Shown in pieces: positions 18,320 through 27,249 of a stretch of 40,617 bases of DNA. A model generated the notes under the pieces. It had not been told where the DNA came from. It saw only the letters and a program-made list of their open reading frames with translations, and made no database searches. The translations under genes were made by a program, and so were the position numbers. The stretch lies in the NCBI GenBank assembly GCA_030610655.1, contig JAUWRG010000010.1:1-40617 (forward strand), written 5' to 3'. Numbering within the stretch: position 1 is the first letter of the stretch; each line of letters opens with the position of its first letter. The stretch comes from Dehalococcoidia bacterium. GTDB taxonomy: Bacteria; Chloroflexota; Dehalococcoidia; E44-bin15.

Positions 18320-18367
18320 AAGCAATAAAGAAACTGAGCACTCTGAATCTAATTTTGCTAAGATAAA

Positions 18368-21300
18368 ATGTCTAACCAAGCCAAGATTGCTGAATTAGTG
18401 GAGAAATACCACCAGGATGCTACGAGGCGGAGCCTATCCGAAGCTGATGTTCGAGCTATCTACATAGACTGGCTTTTCTACTATCTGGGCTGGGATGTGT
18501 GGAAAGATGCCCCGGTTGAAGTTACCAGATACCACCGTGAAGGTTATCAACGAGGAGTTGGCGTCATTGATGTCGGTTTGGAGATTGGTGGTGAGCCGGT
18601 TCTTATCCTAGAAGCTAAGCGGTTTGGAGCCATCCTTCGCTATACTGAGCGCTCTGGTGACCGCACCCCTGAAGAGAGGCAACTCTTCCGCTATGCTCGC
18701 TCCAGGAAAATTCCCTACGGCATCCTCACCAATTTTGAACGGCTTCATGTCTTCAACGCTGACCATGAACGTCTTATCCTCCACTTTGATGACCCTCAGG
18801 AGTATTTAGACCGCTTCTCTGAACTGGAACGCCTCTACCCAGATAACGTTAAAACTGGCAGTCTCCCTGCCTGGGAGAGACAACTGGAGATCAAGGATAT
18901 TGATGAGACTTTCCTTGCTTCGCTACACAACTGGCGCCTCTGTTTAGCTAATGCCATTTATAAGCACAACGCTGATAATCCATCTGTAAAAACCGATGGC
19001 GACTTTGACTTCACCAAATTGATGGCAGCGGTACAGCGCCTTCTCGACCGCCTGATCTTGGTGCGTTATGCCGATGATAAGGAAGTATTGCTTGTCTATG
19101 ACATCTTAGAAACCATTCTTTCCAGCTATCGTAAGAAGGGCGCCTATGCAGGGTGTGACCATCTAAGGAAAGAGTTCATCGACCTTTCCCATAATATGGA
19201 TGAGCAGCATAATACTACCTTATTCCAGAAAGGTCATATCTGTGAACAGGTCTTCATCCCCAATGAAGTGCTAGCTTCAATTATTGAGGAGATGAATAAT
19301 ATCTCCTTCCGCAAATTCAGTTCCGATATTTTGGGCAATACTTATGAGAGCTATCTTGGCACTAAGCTAACATTGCAAAATGGCAAAATTGAGTCTGCGG
19401 AGCGGCGAGATATACGCAAGAGCGGTGGAATCTATTATACCCCAACCTGGGTAGTTCGCTATATATTGGATAATACCTTAGGCACACTACTCAGCCATCT
19501 CGAGGGGAAGCATGGACTGAGAGCTATTGAAGAGGCAAAAGGGATCAACGTGCTAGACCCCGCTTGTGGCAGTGGCTCCTTCCTCATCTATGCCTACCAG
19601 GTATTCGCCGACTTCTACCGCCGAATGAATAGGGCAATAGAGGAGGAGCAGATGGAGCTTCTCGCATCTGGAGCTACCGCAGATATGTTCGAGCGATTGG
19701 AAGCCCTTAAAGATTTGCCTCAGCCGGTGCTTGATTACCCACAGCATATCTTGAGGGAACAGCTTTATGGTGTTGACCTTGACCCTGAAGCTGCCGAGAT
19801 TGCAGCGGTAAATCTCACCATGCAAGCCTTTGCCGATACCAAAAGGGAGAAGCTACCACTCATCCTGAATGAGAACATCAAAGTGGGGAATTCCCTCATC
19901 TCAGGCACGGAAGAAGAATTACGCCGCTACTTCGGCGATGAGTGGCAGGAAAAGAAGCCCTTCAACTGGGAGAAGGAGTTCCCCGAGATTATGGCCGATG
20001 GCGGCTTCGATGTGGTCATTGGCAATCCACCGTATCTTTTTGGCGAATATATAGACCCCTCACACAAGAGTTACTATAAGGATAATTATCAGGTAGCTAT
20101 GGGACAATACGATATATTCTGGCTATTTTATGAGAAATGTCTGCAGCTTTTGAACAAACATGGCTATCATGGCTACATAGTCCCTGATGCTATGCTTGTT
20201 CGAGATGAATCGCAAATTTTAAGGGCACTGCTATTGGAGAGAACCCAGCTTAAGAAGATAGCCCATGTAGGTACTGTATTTCCACACTCTGATGTGTCTT
20301 CCGTGATTATCGTTCTTCACAAGAGCAAAGAAGCCATTACACAGAATATTGTTGATATTGAGCAGCTACGGCAAGCTGGACAGCTTCAGCTTGTTAACCA
20401 AATTACTCAAAGTGGATTCTTGCGGCATGAAAAGTACGCCCTTGTGTTGGGTCTCAATGAGCACTGGGAAACGGTCGAGCAAAAGCTAACTCGCTATTCT
20501 CAGCTTTTAGGAGACTTTGTGAGTCTTTCAAGAGGAGAGGAATTTGGGAAGAGAAAATTAGAGAAGATACAAGGAGAAATCCCTCCAAGGAAGGTGCCTA
20601 TTCTAGTGGGTGAGAATATCAGAAGATATTGGATAAGCGCCCCTGTCTATCTTATATCTCAAGAGAAGATTGCTAAACCCATTAGTAATTACCAATCGCC
20701 AAAAATCCTTATTGTGAAAACAGGAGAGAGACTGGTGTGTGCTATTGACACCGAAAATAGATATACTCTCCAATCTCTCTACAATATTCGGCTGAAAACA
20801 AGTTGTCCCTACCAGCAAAATTATATCTTGGCTATATTGAATTCAACTTTGATGTCAGCCTATCTGCAACAAGAAGTTACCTCTTATAAAAAGTTGTTTC
20901 CTCAAATAAACCAAGGTCATATCCTAGCGCTCCCCATCCGCCACATTGACTTTGATAACTCTGAGGAGAAAAGCAAGCATGATAATCTGGTGGCTCTGGC
21001 TGATAAGATGCTGGAGCTTAATAAACGCCTCGCCCCTATACGCAAGGCTTCCTCGCCAGAGAAAGATAAGCTACTTCAAGAAATCGAGCTTACCGACCGA
21101 GCTATTGACCGTCTGGTCTATGGCCTGTATCAACTCAACGAGGATGAAATTAAGGTGATCGAGGAGGACAGCTTTGGTGAGGAGTTCGCTGAAGCGTATG
21201 GTAAATTGCCAACCACGGAGCAAGCCGAAGCTTTAGCTGAGAAGCGCGCTGCTTCTCAGCAGAGGCAAGAAACTCTTGAGCAGGAACTGGAGCGCTTAAA

Positions 21301-21586
21301 AGAGATTATTATTCGCCAATATCAGCCGGAGAGAATCTACCTCTTTGGCTCTCTGGCTCAAGGTAAAGTGCATCCCTGGAGCGACATCGACCTTTGTATT
21401 ATCAAAAAGACTGAGGTTCGCTTCCTGGATCGGCTTAAAGAGATAATCCAGCTCACTGACCCACGAATAGCAGTAAGCTTTACCGTGTATACACCGGAAG
21501 AGGTGGCGTCCTTTGAAAAGGAGAGGCATTATTTTTGGAAGGATGAAATAGTAGCAAAAGGGAAGGTAATCTATGAATCGAGCTGA
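18368..21586 (+). CDS. Single-chain restriction-modification enzyme (N-terminal PD-(D/E)xK-like nuclease, N6-adenine methylase, target recognition region) with C-terminal MNT-type nucleotidyltransferase domain
   Basis: GVIDVGLEIGGEPVLILEAKRFG (nuclease-like); GGIYYTPTWVVRYILDNTL, VLDPACGSGSFLIYAYQ, VVIGNPPYLFGEY (N6-adenine MTase); C-term RIYLFGSLAQGKVHPWSDIDLCII (GSx10DxD MNT motif). Confidence 0.92.
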   Translation: MSNQAKIAELVEKYHQDATRRSLSEADVRAIYIDWLFYYLGWDVWKDAPVEVTRYHREGYQRGVGVIDVGLEIGGEPVLILEAKRFGAILRYTERSGDRTPEERQLFRYARSRKIPYGILTNFERLHVFNADHERLILHFDDPQEYLDRFSELERLYPDNVKTGSLPAWERQLEIKDIDETFLASLHNWRLCLANAIYKHNADNPSVKTDGDFDFTKLMAAVQRLLDRLILVRYADDKEVLLVYDILETILSSYRKKGAYAGCDHLRKEFIDLSHNMDEQHNTTLFQKGHICEQVFIPNEVLASIIEEMNNISFRKFSSDILGNTYESYLGTKLTLQNGKIESAERRDIRKSGGIYYTPTWVVRYILDNTLGTLLSHLEGKHGLRAIEEAKGINVLDPACGSGSFLIYAYQVFADFYRRMNRAIEEEQMELLASGATADMFERLEALKDLPQPVLDYPQHILREQLYGVDLDPEAAEIAAVNLTMQAFADTKREKLPLILNENIKVGNSLISGTEEELRRYFGDEWQEKKPFNWEKEFPEIMADGGFDVVIGNPPYLFGEYIDPSHKSYYKDNYQVAMGQYDIFWLFYEKCLQLLNKHGYHGYIVPDAMLVRDESQILRALLLERTQLKKIAHVGTVFPHSDVSSVIIVLHKSKEAITQNIVDIEQLRQAGQLQLVNQITQSGFLRHEKYALVLGLNEHWETVEQKLTRYSQLLGDFVSLSRGEEFGKRKLEKIQGEIPPRKVPILVGENIRRYWISAPVYLISQEKIAKPISNYQSPKILIVKTGERLVCAIDTENRYTLQSLYNIRLKTSCPYQQNYILAILNSTLMSAYLQQEVTSYKKLFPQINQGHILALPIRHIDFDNSEEKSKHDNLVALADKMLELNKRLAPIRKASSPEKDKLLQEIELTDRAIDRLVYGLYQLNEDEIKVIEEDSFGEEFAEAYGKLPTTEQAEALAEKRAASQQRQETLEQELERLKEIIIRQYQPERIYLFGSLAQGKVHPWSDIDLCIIKKTEVRFLDRLKEIIQLTDPRIAVSFTVYTPEEVASFEKERHYFWKDEIVAKGKVIYESS

Positions 21587-21926
21587 GGACTGGTTCGAGC
21601 TAGCCGAGGAAGATAGGCGGGTGGCTGAATGGGCTTTTCAGGAGGGCATTTATAATCAGGTCTGCTTTCATGCCCAACAAGGTGCAGAGAAGATGCTAAA
21701 GGGATTCTTAAGGTGGCATAATCAAAATATCCCCAAAACGCATTCCCTTCTGGAGATTTTGAGCCGTTGCATAGATTCAGACCAGACAATGGAGGAGCTT
21801 CGAGACGATTGTAGAAAGTTGCAGGCTTATTATATGCCCACTCGTTACCCTGATGCGTTGCCAGGCTCACTGCCTGAAGCCTTACCGACCGAGAATGATG
21901 CTAAAAAGAAGCCTACGGTGGTTTAA
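21573..21926 (+). CDS. HEPN-domain protein, MNT partner; reading frame probably continues to 21967 in the -1 frame
   Basis: DWFELAEEDRRVAEWAFQEGIYNQVCFHAQQGAEKMLKGFLRWH...YYMPTRYPDALPGSLPEALPTENDA: HEPN family signature; 14-nt overlap with upstream gene. Confidence 0.9.
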   Translation: MNRAEDWFELAEEDRRVAEWAFQEGIYNQVCFHAQQGAEKMLKGFLRWHNQNIPKTHSLLEILSRCIDSDQTMEELRDDCRKLQAYYMPTRYPDALPGSLPEALPTENDAKKKPTVV

Positions 21927-22010
21927 TGCGAATCATAAGTCTAATTCAGGATAGGCTGAAGAAATAAAGCTTATGTCTCTAAGCGACAAATTTGCTAGGA
22001 AGGTTAAAAT

Positions 22011-23860: not shown

Positions 23861-24916
23861 ATGAAAGTACTCCATACGGCTGATATACATCTAAGGGAAT
23901 ATCAAGACGAAAGGTGGAAAGCTCTGCAAGAACTGATCGAAATCGGGAAACAAAACGAAGTTAGCATTTTCGTGATATGCGGTGACCTCTTCAATGAAGG
24001 CATTGATGCTGAAAACCTGAGGCCTTACATACGGGGGATCTTCTCGAACACTGGCTTTAAGGTCCTAATAATTCCTGGCAATCATGACAGGGATTCATAC
24101 AAGGGGGGCATGTATTTCGGTGAAGCTGTATTCATCTTGAGCAGTTCACCTTTCGAATACGAGAATATCAGAGTTGTTGGAATGCCCTTCGAGCCAATAC
24201 AAGGGGAAGAACTTCTCAGGAAAATCCGAGCTTTGAACAAGGTATTAACAGGTGATAAGAAGAATATCCTACTTTGTCATGGGGAACTTCTCGACGCCTT
24301 CTTTTCGAGAACGGATTTCGGTGAGGAAGGTGAAGGAAGGTATATGCCTTTCAGGCTGTCTTATTTCGAAGAGTTGAATATTGATTACGTGCTTGCAGGT
24401 CATTTCCATTCGAAATTCGACGTATGGCGATTAGAGAATGGAGGCTATTTTGTGTATCCCGGTTCACCTATTTCAATTACTCAGAGAGAAACAGGGCAGA
24501 GAAAAGTCAATATTTTCGAGATAGGAGATCCGCCTAAAGAGTACGCGCTTGATACACCTCATTTCGAAAAAGTGGTCATAGAACTCGACCCTTTCGTGGA
24601 CCAAAATCCTCTGGAAATCACAAAAACACATTTTGAAAAACTACATCCAAAAGCCAAAGCCATCTTGACCGTTTCAGGATACATCAACAGTGAAAGAATC
24701 CGTACAACAGAAACGGACCTTGTAAGTGAAATAGAACAAATGACTACAGGAAAATGTGTTGAGAAACACTATGAGTTCAGAGACATCCGAAGGATACTTG
24801 AAGATGACTTGTTTAAGAGTTTTATGAGCAAGATCAGGCAAGCTGGCTACGAGGAAGACAAGATAAAGCAACTGCAAGATGTTGCAATCAGGGCAATGAT
24901 GAAGGTACAGCTATGA
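23861..24916 (+). CDS. Metallophosphoesterase / SbcD-YhaO-like DNA nuclease
   Basis: MKVLHTADIHLREY, VICGDLFNEG, IIPGNHDRDSY, LLCHGELLD, YVLAGHFHSKF: calcineurin-like phosphoesterase motifs in order. Confidence 0.9.
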   Translation: MKVLHTADIHLREYQDERWKALQELIEIGKQNEVSIFVICGDLFNEGIDAENLRPYIRGIFSNTGFKVLIIPGNHDRDSYKGGMYFGEAVFILSSSPFEYENIRVVGMPFEPIQGEELLRKIRALNKVLTGDKKNILLCHGELLDAFFSRTDFGEEGEGRYMPFRLSYFEELNIDYVLAGHFHSKFDVWRLENGGYFVYPGSPISITQRETGQRKVNIFEIGDPPKEYALDTPHFEKVVIELDPFVDQNPLEITKTHFEKLHPKAKAILTVSGYINSERIRTTETDLVSEIEQMTTGKCVEKHYEFRDIRRILEDDLFKSFMSKIRQAGYEEDKIKQLQDVAIRAMMKVQL

Positions 24917-27249
24917 AAATAAAGGAATTCTCAATACGCCGCTATGGACCATTGCCAGATACTGGACGTATAACAGTGGGTAATTTCTCTCTATTCTTCG
25001 GGAAAAACGAGGATGGTAAGACTCTCACCATAGACGGCCTAGTAAAAATGTTGTTGAGAACAGGAAGACGCCTTTTTGAGCGCATAAACAGGGTAAATGA
25101 AGAGCCGGAAGGCTACTTGATCGTGGAAGATGCTGAAGGTAGAGAACTAAAACTCCCAGAGAAAGGAGACTTAACAGACATTACTGATCTTACCCCTGAA
25201 GAATGTCGCAATATATTCATAATAAGAAATAGCGACCTTTCTATCGCCTTAGAGAGCGGGTTCTATAGAAATGTGACAGACCGCCTTGTCGGTTTGAGAA
25301 CCGGAGAGATTTCTCAAATAAAAGGTCAACTGCAAGAGCTAGGGAAATTAACTAAGGCTGACAGCACCGCTTCTCTGCGTGACTGGGCAGGCGAGAAATT
25401 AAAGACTGGGATAAGACGTGCACATAGTTTGATTGAAAAGATCAAGGCATTGGATGAGAAGATTAGAGCGGAGAACTTTGATAGGTTTGAAGATGAGTTT
25501 CTCAAGATAAGAGAGGAGGCGAGCGAAGTTAGCCGTAGGATAGAAGCCTTTGAGAATGCTAGGAAAAGAGAGCAATACGAAAAGTGTAATAGCGCTTATG
25601 AAGCCCTTACATCTGCCCGGAAAAATCTTGAGGAACTGGAAGTTTATATTCGCGAGGATGAGCAGCTGTGGGCTGGGTATGGGAAGGATATTAAGAACTC
25701 GACAGAGGACATACAAAAGTTACAAAACGTAGCGGATACCGAGAAAGGAGAATTGCGGCAAAAAGTGAAGGAATTGGAGGTGGATAAGTTGGCTTTGCAG
25801 GCCCTCGCCGAGAGGAAAAAAAGGCTAGACGATGAAATCAAGCTGGAAATCAAGAACTATGAGATGAAGAGTGGAGAGTTAGCGCTGAAAGAAACGAAGG
25901 GTAGATTCTTTGCAGTAGCAGCGATAATTTCAGTTGTACTACTATCTATACTAGCCTTTGGAATTATTCTCAGGCCATCGCTATTATCCTACGCACTCTT
26001 TGTGTGCTTCTTAATATTAACCGGGGTTTTTGCAACACTAAGGTTTTCACTCATAAGAGAGAAAGCCTGGCTTGCGGGGGTGTTTGAAAGAATCAAATTA
26101 AGCGTTTCAAGATTTGAATTGGGTGCAGAAAGCATCGGAGGAATCCTCTCCAATATTCAGAAATTTGACGAGGAATATTCTAAACGGCAAATGGAATTAG
26201 AGCAGCTTAAGACGGAAGTATCACTATTGGAAAGAGAAACAAAGAATCTTGAAGAAACGCAGATCCCAAGCATAGAAGAGAAAAACACGAAAGCTAAGGG
26301 GAAAATAGATGAGGTGATAAGCAAAACCGGAGTAAGAACTCTTCAAGAGTATCGTGAAAAGCTTGCATTGAAACTGGGGTATGAAAGATCAGCAGAGACG
26401 CAGCTTGGTATACTACAAAGTCATTTTGGCTCAGCAGGAGAAACATCGGAGGAGAACTTGTCGCATTGGCTTGAGGATATTAGTGCCCTCAAGGAATTCG
26501 AGGATAAGGCTAAGGATATAGCATACGATGAGAAGACCGCTTCACAGTTGAAATCTGAGCATGAGATGCTTCTGACTAGCCAAAAGGAACTTGAGGGCAG
26601 GATGGCCGATCTTTTTGACCAGTTAAGAGAAGTAGAAAAGGAAGCGAATGAGATTCTAAGGTTGGAAGATGATTACCTATATTGCAACACTTCGGTAGAT
26701 ATGAACGCAATCAGGGACAAGTTGTTAGAGTGTATAGCCAAAATCGAGGTCGAAAAAGATGATGCACTAGAAGCTATAAGAATCTTCGAGGAACTCGAAG
26801 GGGAGGAGGAAGAAAAGATCTCTGCTCTTTTTGGTAAGGACAGCCCTATTTCCAAGCACTTTTGTAAGATAACGGGCGGCATTTATGAGGAGGTAGAGTT
26901 CGTTCTTGATGACGTGAGGAAAGTACAGGTCAGACTTCAAGACGGTAGTATATTGGCTGCCGATAAACTATCAGGTGGCGCCTACGATCAGTTATATCTT
27001 TCCATCCGGCTTGCCCTTGGGGAAAAGCTACTAAAGGGAGGCAACGGTTTCTTCATCATGGACGACCCATTCGTAAAAGCCGACTTAGGAAGATTGCAAA
27101 AACAGCTTGATATACTCAAGAGTATCTCTGAATCGGGATGGCAGATTATGTACTTTACTGCGAAAGATGAGGTAAAGGATGTTCTGCAACAAGATATACA
27201 AAGCGGCAGGATCCGCTACGTGGAACTTCAAGGTACATTTCCTCAATGA
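24913..27249 (+). CDS. AAA ATPase, SbcC/YhaN-like, with long coiled coil interrupted by a predicted transmembrane hairpin
   Basis: FFGKNEDGKTLTIDGLVKMLL (Walker A region), long coiled coil, FFAVAAIISVVLLSILAFGIILRPSLLSYALFVCFLILTGVFATL hydrophobic pair, KLSGGAYDQLYLSIRLALGEKLL (signature), GFFIMDDPFVKAD (Walker B); ATGA overlap with upstream gene. Confidence 0.9.
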   Translation: MKIKEFSIRRYGPLPDTGRITVGNFSLFFGKNEDGKTLTIDGLVKMLLRTGRRLFERINRVNEEPEGYLIVEDAEGRELKLPEKGDLTDITDLTPEECRNIFIIRNSDLSIALESGFYRNVTDRLVGLRTGEISQIKGQLQELGKLTKADSTASLRDWAGEKLKTGIRRAHSLIEKIKALDEKIRAENFDRFEDEFLKIREEASEVSRRIEAFENARKREQYEKCNSAYEALTSARKNLEELEVYIREDEQLWAGYGKDIKNSTEDIQKLQNVADTEKGELRQKVKELEVDKLALQALAERKKRLDDEIKLEIKNYEMKSGELALKETKGRFFAVAAIISVVLLSILAFGIILRPSLLSYALFVCFLILTGVFATLRFSLIREKAWLAGVFERIKLSVSRFELGAESIGGILSNIQKFDEEYSKRQMELEQLKTEVSLLERETKNLEETQIPSIEEKNTKAKGKIDEVISKTGVRTLQEYREKLALKLGYERSAETQLGILQSHFGSAGETSEENLSHWLEDISALKEFEDKAKDIAYDEKTASQLKSEHEMLLTSQKELEGRMADLFDQLREVEKEANEILRLEDDYLYCNTSVDMNAIRDKLLECIAKIEVEKDDALEAIRIFEELEGEEEEKISALFGKDSPISKHFCKITGGIYEEVEFVLDDVRKVQVRLQDGSILAADKLSGGAYDQLYLSIRLALGEKLLKGGNGFFIMDDPFVKADLGRLQKQLDILKSISESGWQIMYFTAKDEVKDVLQQDIQSGRIRYVELQGTFPQ

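Follow-up and report, generated by a model that had tools for sequence, protein, structure and literature searches.

The closest described relatives of the locus presented here are the Class II pairs of the HepT/MntA (Type VII) systems, in which an MNT nucleotidyltransferase is encoded upstream of a HEPN protein, and the Type IIG restriction–modification (R-M) enzymes. In Class I pairs the MNT AMPylates a tyrosine of the HEPN protein, thereby silencing its RNase activity, and the metal ligands of the Shewanella MntA are D39, D41 and D71 (PMC7641770); for a Legionella pair it is found that changes of the GS or DxD residues abolish the modification (PMC11586414). Class II pairs (PF05168) have the GSx10DxD motif and a conserved tyrosine, and have no RX4H motif (PMC7641770). 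HEPN proteins without this motif can still be toxic, the PF05168 proteins have an alternative conserved histidine, and this family clusters with R-M operons; it is also proposed that failure of an R-M system releases the HEPN proteins linked to it (PMC3710099). Here, a locus is described on a 40,617-nucleotide (nt) stretch of DNA, referred to as the window (contig JAUWRG010000010.1 of the Dehalococcoidia bacterium assembly GCA_030610655.1), in which the reading frame of a Type IIG enzyme continues into an MNT domain and is followed by a HEPN gene. The locus is a variant of the Type IIG R-M enzymes and of the Class II MNT–HEPN pairs, not a new category. Its features, in window coordinates, are as follows.

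18320..22010, + strand: inserted block of just two genes (R-M::MNT fusion and HEPN) between apgM and tpiA
18368..21586, + strand: Type IIG restriction-methylase::MNT fusion, 1072 residues (open reading frame, Pfam, PADLOC)
18566..18754, + strand: PD-(D/E)xK nuclease region, D68 and E82-x-K84, HSDR_N residues 67-129 (Pfam, family alignment)
19412..20380, + strand: N6-adenine methylase domain with IYYTP, DPACGSGSFL and NPPY (Pfam, family alignment)
20597..20938, + strand: TaqI_C-like specificity domain, residues 744-857 (Pfam, TaqI alignment)
21170..21235, + strand: linker between the usual R-M end (about residue 934) and the MNT, with a low-confidence start and then a helix entering the MNT (residues 950-985)
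21236..21583, + strand: MNT domain, about residues 957-1072, GSx10DxD intact, serine in place of the third acid, no ATG of its own
21573..21926, + strand: HEPN gene, PF05168, 117 residues, overlapping the fused frame by 14 nt; H57, R91, Y92 and P93 kept, last helix lost
21905..21967, + strand: stretch of another frame coding the conserved last HEPN helix and marking the gene break (gapless match, by eye, to the last helix of the HEPN protein of genome G463)

The R-M half looks like a normal Type IIG enzyme. Pfam finds HSDR_N (67-129), N6_Mtase (349-671), Eco57I (464-634), TaqI_C (744-857) and Polbeta/NTP_transf_2 (974-1071) in the 1072-residue protein, each above its curated cut-off, and PADLOC assigns residues 2-656 to REase_MTase_IIG (6.3e-102). 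The nuclease and methylase look intact because the key residues, D68, E82-x-K84, (G)IYYTP (Y356-Y357-T358-P359), D-A-GSGSF and NPP(Y/W), vary little or not at all in ten family members. Like the enzymes of the PADLOC PDLC03604 group with a TaqI-like specificity domain, the window enzyme carries nuclease, N6-methylase and specificity domain with all key motifs in a single chain, but its relatives have a stop near the end of the R-M part (about residues 932-935), whereas the window enzyme has an additional C-terminal MNT. When the family and phylum of the window genome and 85,462 species genomes are sampled, all of the approximately 37 R-M relatives end opposite window residues ~932-940, before the MNT. 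This set includes 24 relatives from a contig scan with a two-row alignment, none of which is fused to an MNT (the same scan gave no matches with a single R-M protein as query), and searches of plasmids and phages returned no R-M::MNT fusion.

Judged by homology, the tail that follows the R-M part is a short linker plus a complete MNT, aligning with free MNTs from their N-terminal helix to their last strand. The free relatives begin with an ATG thereabouts; the only in-frame starts near the junction of the window protein are GTG 930 and TTG 947, and with a GAGGA upstream of GTG 930, internal initiation at this codon is possible, though unproven. Structure prediction of the C-terminal part, proposed as a check in the initial annotation, which was made from the sequence, gives an MNT fold: the segment modelled alone as a single chain with AlphaFold has a pLDDT of 72, and its first structural matches are the solved MNT antitoxins 8xeo/8xeh (TM 0.71-0.76 on target). 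The full-length AlphaFold model is confident over most of the R-M half but not at residues 935-953, and the helix of residues 950-985 runs into the MNT, which is itself poorly modelled because the alignment contained almost no MNTs. The match to the NCBIfam MntA model NF047752 is 30.6 bits, below the cut-off of 60. The joining of nuclease, N6-methylase, recognition region and C-terminal MNT in one open reading frame, as initially annotated, is borne out by Pfam, PADLOC and the family alignment, and the alignment also confirms the intact GSx10DxD motif.

The second gene was initially described as a HEPN gene overlapping the first by 14 nt, and this holds: Pfam assigns it to PF05168 (1.9e-27), and Thermus TT1696 is the nearest PDB entry. 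The overlap of exactly 14 nt is also found in the MNT–HEPN pairs of five other genomes and in the C73 pair of the window's own genome, and so is the standard, conserved junction of this MNT–HEPN clade. As in Class II pairs, the PF05168 domain lies directly downstream of the MNT; the Rx4-6H RNase motif is absent from the window HEPN sequence, as had been noted, and with it the RX4HXY signature of Class I (PF01934/PF08780), and the conserved RYP (91-93) is kept. The end of the gene had been placed at 21967, which is the stop of the other frame carrying the last helix; the frame in the given sequence ends at 21926. A further MNT–HEPN pair of the window's own genome (L041, 2885-9194) is flanked, by eye, by mutS-like and mutL-like genes.

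The two genes occupy an insertion of approximately 3.7 kb in a glycolysis operon of a 1.68-Mb draft genome (99.8% complete, 91 contigs). In all 12 other genomes of the family with a tpiA hit, a genome of the same genus included, pgk, apgM and tpiA are contiguous and only a few bases separate apgM from tpiA; the 3.7-kb block is present in the window only. Its G+C content is below that of the upstream genes, no integrase is found within it, and there is no obvious target duplication at its edges. Either the fused gene and the HEPN gene arrived in one insertion, or separate insertions followed one another and the two were joined later. The locus is best explained as a defence cassette of two genes gained by horizontal transfer; as a whole, with the coupled working set out below, this reading has about an even chance of being correct.

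At four loci, R-M genes of the same family are also wedged tightly among housekeeping genes, as the window cassette is in its operon; by eye, they lie upstream of trpE-like and pyrR/pyrB-like genes. At four other loci, toxin–antitoxin-like or accessory genes are found shortly downstream of the R-M gene (DUF5615 with MerR-DUF433, RhuM, an MqsA-like HTH protein and PIN). Downstream of the R-M gene in Methanoregula sp. E9 (L075, 6001-15225), a series of fragments repeats its C-terminal 30-75 residues, alternating with accessory genes (YhcG, RhuM, MNT–HEPN, HicBA-like), a pattern that looks like repeated insertion of modules at the 3' end of this gene. One such fragment lies ~90 nt upstream of an MNT–HEPN pair.

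The window MNT belongs to a clade that is embedded in defence loci, namely those of Type III-C CRISPR, of Hma and of Type IIG enzymes. Relatives of this MNT occur in 87 of 393 genomes of the class, and only that of the window is joined to an R-M gene. The nearest pair in the class, that of genome G463 (50% identity for the MNT and 52% for the HEPN protein), is separated by 44 nt from an upstream Type IIG gene, which encodes a 1076-residue enzyme of a different family (PDLC03630, 2.7e-87), and adjoins DarT. Further close MNTs, 48-58% identical to that of the window, come from a search of the whole phylum with a small MNT profile. Their neighbours include Cmr1, Cmr6 and Cas10c of Type III-C CRISPR loci in four genomes, HmaA and HmaB on either side of the MNT in G211 (with a helicase that is 85% identical in G107), and a CARF protein in G179; the MNTs in Type III-C loci or beside the CARF gene are 52-58% identical to the window MNT. 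A tree of 46 MNTs places every one of the nine that are embedded in defence loci in a 20-row clade that includes the window, and none of them among the remaining 26 (Fisher p = 1.5e-4). The flanks of the out-group pairs show no R-M, Cas or Hma cluster, and of the 65 control flanking open reading frames one matches the mad2 methylase model and none has R-M methylase motifs or a match to an R-M profile.

At four loci of several Chloroflexota, MNT–HEPN pairs are found amid Cmr genes and Cas10c of Type III-C CRISPR systems. The Cas10c proteins that were checked have no GGDD motif; an effector that works otherwise than through cyclic oligoadenylate signalling would therefore be plausible, and the MNT–HEPN pair may be such an effector in these loci. 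An inserted palindromic repeat, accompanied by a duplicated flank, interrupts the HEPN gene of G463 (L049, 5605-6463), and DarT and an ADP-ribosylglycohydrolase-like gene follow downstream.

The architecture of an R-M::MNT fusion followed by a HEPN gene recurs, although the exact window fusion is confined to a single genome. A search of two further phyla with the MNT profile, of the kind for methylase–MNT fusions beside HEPN genes that the initial annotation had suggested, found two more large MNT fusions. In the archaeon G890 (L200), a 1162-residue R-M::MNT protein is followed by a full-length HEPN gene. This protein, with a nuclease-like N-terminus, an N6-methylase (PADLOC MTase_I, 2.3e-105; PDB RM.BsaXI, 1.3e-31), two specificity domains and the C-terminal MNT, has an R-M architecture unlike that of the window enzyme, and its MNT keeps GSx10DxD and the third acid, all catalytic residues being present. 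In G1338 (L202, 7298-8723), a 350-residue Cas3-HD::MNT fusion with a HEPN gene next to it lies in a type I-A CRISPR locus with Cas8a, Cas11, Cas7, Cas5, the Cas3 helicase and Cas1. In all three genomic cases, the window included, the HEPN gene is downstream of the fusion. The order HmaA-MNT-HEPN-HmaB is found again in G1049. Large open frames around MNTs in two further genomes (G311 and G440) were rejected as fusions, being unrelated reading frames. The PDB also lists "Cmr1-MntA" entries (9z7q, 9z7v and 9z7x), which, judged from the database entry alone, share with the window protein the attachment of an MntA-type domain to a protein of a defence system, but by name the partner is a subunit of the Type III CRISPR backbone, not an R-M enzyme. 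Fusion of MNTs to defence proteins that are unrelated to one another has thus happened several times, convergently, and such tethering supports the idea of a guarded back-up toxin.

When compared with Class II HepT/MntA pairs (PF05168/PF01909, PMC7641770), the locus shares the gene order (MNT first, then a PF05168 HEPN), the GSx10DxD motif, the overlapping genes and the RY-P signature, but its MNT is the tail of an R-M enzyme instead of a free protein, the third metal ligand is gone and the HEPN protein is shortened. With the R-M-linked HEPN toxins (PrrC/RloC and others, PMC3710099) it shares a HEPN effector that would be restrained by an R-M system as a second layer, but for these the restraint is proposed to come from R-M subunits or an ATPase, whereas the R-M chain of the window bears the antitoxin enzyme itself. 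The methylase fusions listed in PMC3710099 are those of HEPN-M (DUF86), with no entry for an MNT that has a PF05168 partner. The fusion fits the proposal made there, the antitoxin enzyme being part of the R-M chain. In the favoured reading, the first gene would encode a single-chain Type IIG R-M enzyme with the antitoxin of a Class II pair in frame at its C-terminus, and the second gene the HEPN toxin. The R-M part would mark host DNA and cut unmarked DNA, and the tethered MNT would silence the co-translated HEPN protein, either through nucleotidylation or through binding. Were the R-M enzyme lost, degraded or blocked by an invader, the MNT would be gone too, and the unmodified HEPN protein would arrest the cell; this coupling would make the cassette hard to lose. 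We infer all three of the steps concerned, that is, the toxicity of the HEPN protein, its silencing by the window MNT and its release on R-M failure. The reading draws on the intact R-M motifs, the complete MNT fold with GSx10DxD, the lack of an independent MNT start near the usual place, the conserved 14-nt junction, the insertion as one block, the defence clade, the independent fusions and the Cmr1-MntA entry, and that such a coupled back-up explains the fused architecture is an evenly balanced proposition.

A number of points weigh against this reading. The experiments of PMC7641770 concern Class I pairs only (PF01934/PF08780) and include no toxicity data for Class II; AMPylation of the HEPN protein by the MNT, as initially annotated, is established for Class I, and the window pair is of Class II. 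At the position of the third metal-binding acid (D71 in Shewanella MntA) the window MNT has a serine, whereas its 19 clade relatives have an aspartate (18/19) or a glutamate (1/19); it is the sole one of the 20 clade members without this acid, and its catalytic site keeps GSx10DxD and not the third ligand. The HEPN protein terminates in PTENDAKKKPTVV, whereas intact relatives extend with a helix of 20-25 residues: its frame stops at 21926 by a frameshift at a run of five A, leaving an incomplete helical bundle. Reading through the break does not improve the Pfam score (96.0 bits, compared with 96.2 as encoded), so the argument for a missing helix rests on the alignment with relatives. Because of the loss of both the third ligand and the last helix, the coupled switch is probably weakened or dead in the window genome; the same architecture is found intact in other genomes. 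The nine-of-nine clade count depends on a branch with moderate support (85/91) and on an uneven reading of context, over 10-16 kb within the clade and ~1.5 kb for most MNTs outside it. The initial interpretation of a coupled back-up is thus partly supported: fusion, HEPN pairing and coupling to defence hold, and the Class II status and the two lesions weaken it, leaving a working switch in this genome in doubt.

These lesions would also be expected if an MNT–HEPN pair had landed behind the R-M gene, the stop codon had been lost and the pair had then decayed, only the restriction enzyme being at work. Both lesions lie in the toxin–antitoxin half with the R-M half intact, and the HEPN gene of G463 is likewise broken, by the palindromic repeat. 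The exact window fusion is isolated, being unique among the ~37 related Type IIG proteins of the sample; confinement to one assembly, initially named as what would refute the coupling, is thus found for the exact fusion and not for the architecture, given the archaeal R-M::MNT and the Cas3-HD::MNT proteins. For the archaeal fusion, the nearest complete R-M ortholog (in G980, 69% identical) has no MNT, and an MNT–HEPN pair (71% and up to 80% identical) is encoded elsewhere in that genome; the closest ortholog (in G940) ends at a contig edge. However, the fused MNT retains every residue that is invariant among 17 MNTs, and many MNTs of a separate group, including several with a HEPN partner, have serine at the third-acid position, suggesting that this change need not abolish function. 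Neutral passengers are also not expected to fuse repeatedly with unrelated defence proteins. Decay of a passenger pair is a serious contender, although its chance is clearly less than even.

It is improbable that the MNT and HEPN proteins form a two-part nucleotidyltransferase, with the HEPN protein binding the substrate and the R-M enzyme, nucleic acid or a phage product as target, without any silencing of a toxin. Class II HEPN proteins, that of the window included, have no Rx4-6H RNase motif (PMC3710099, PMC7641770) and the HEPN fold resembles the substrate-binding domains of nucleotidyltransferases (PMC3710099), but strong transferase activity of the window copy is made unlikely by the missing third metal ligand, and the MNT–HEPN pairs tested so far are toxin–antitoxin pairs (PMC7641770, PMC11586414). 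An error of metagenome assembly at the fusion junction or at the HEPN frameshift is very improbable. The draft is fragmented and the frame break is at a run of identical bases, but the junction lies within one long open frame with the conserved 14-nt junction downstream, the operon continues on both sides, and the same kind of fusion is found in an archaeon.

Elsewhere in the window (23861-27249), an SbcD/Mre11-like nuclease gene overlaps the gene for a 778-residue SbcC-like ATPase with an apparent membrane segment in the middle of the protein (by eye).

Returning to the reading of a coupled back-up, it is possible that the tethering of an MNT to a core defence protein, with an adjacent HEPN gene, is a general and repeatedly invented guard device, extending over Type IIG and Type I-like R-M enzymes, the Cas3-HD protein of type I CRISPR systems, Type III CRISPR complexes and Hma; we hold this wider claim tentatively, at somewhat less than an even chance. 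An invader that disables the defence protein would then remove the antitoxin and cause growth arrest. The window locus is more interesting alongside its relatives, as one of several convergent tetherings, and the archaeal R-M::MNT protein (L200) and the Cas3-HD::MNT protein (L202), each with its HEPN gene, are the lesion-free candidates. If true, this would make the old idea that R-M systems keep a suicidal RNase in reserve testable in two-gene systems, and it would explain why MNT–HEPN pairs are so common and so often found near defence genes, the antitoxin reporting on the health of the enzyme to which it is joined.

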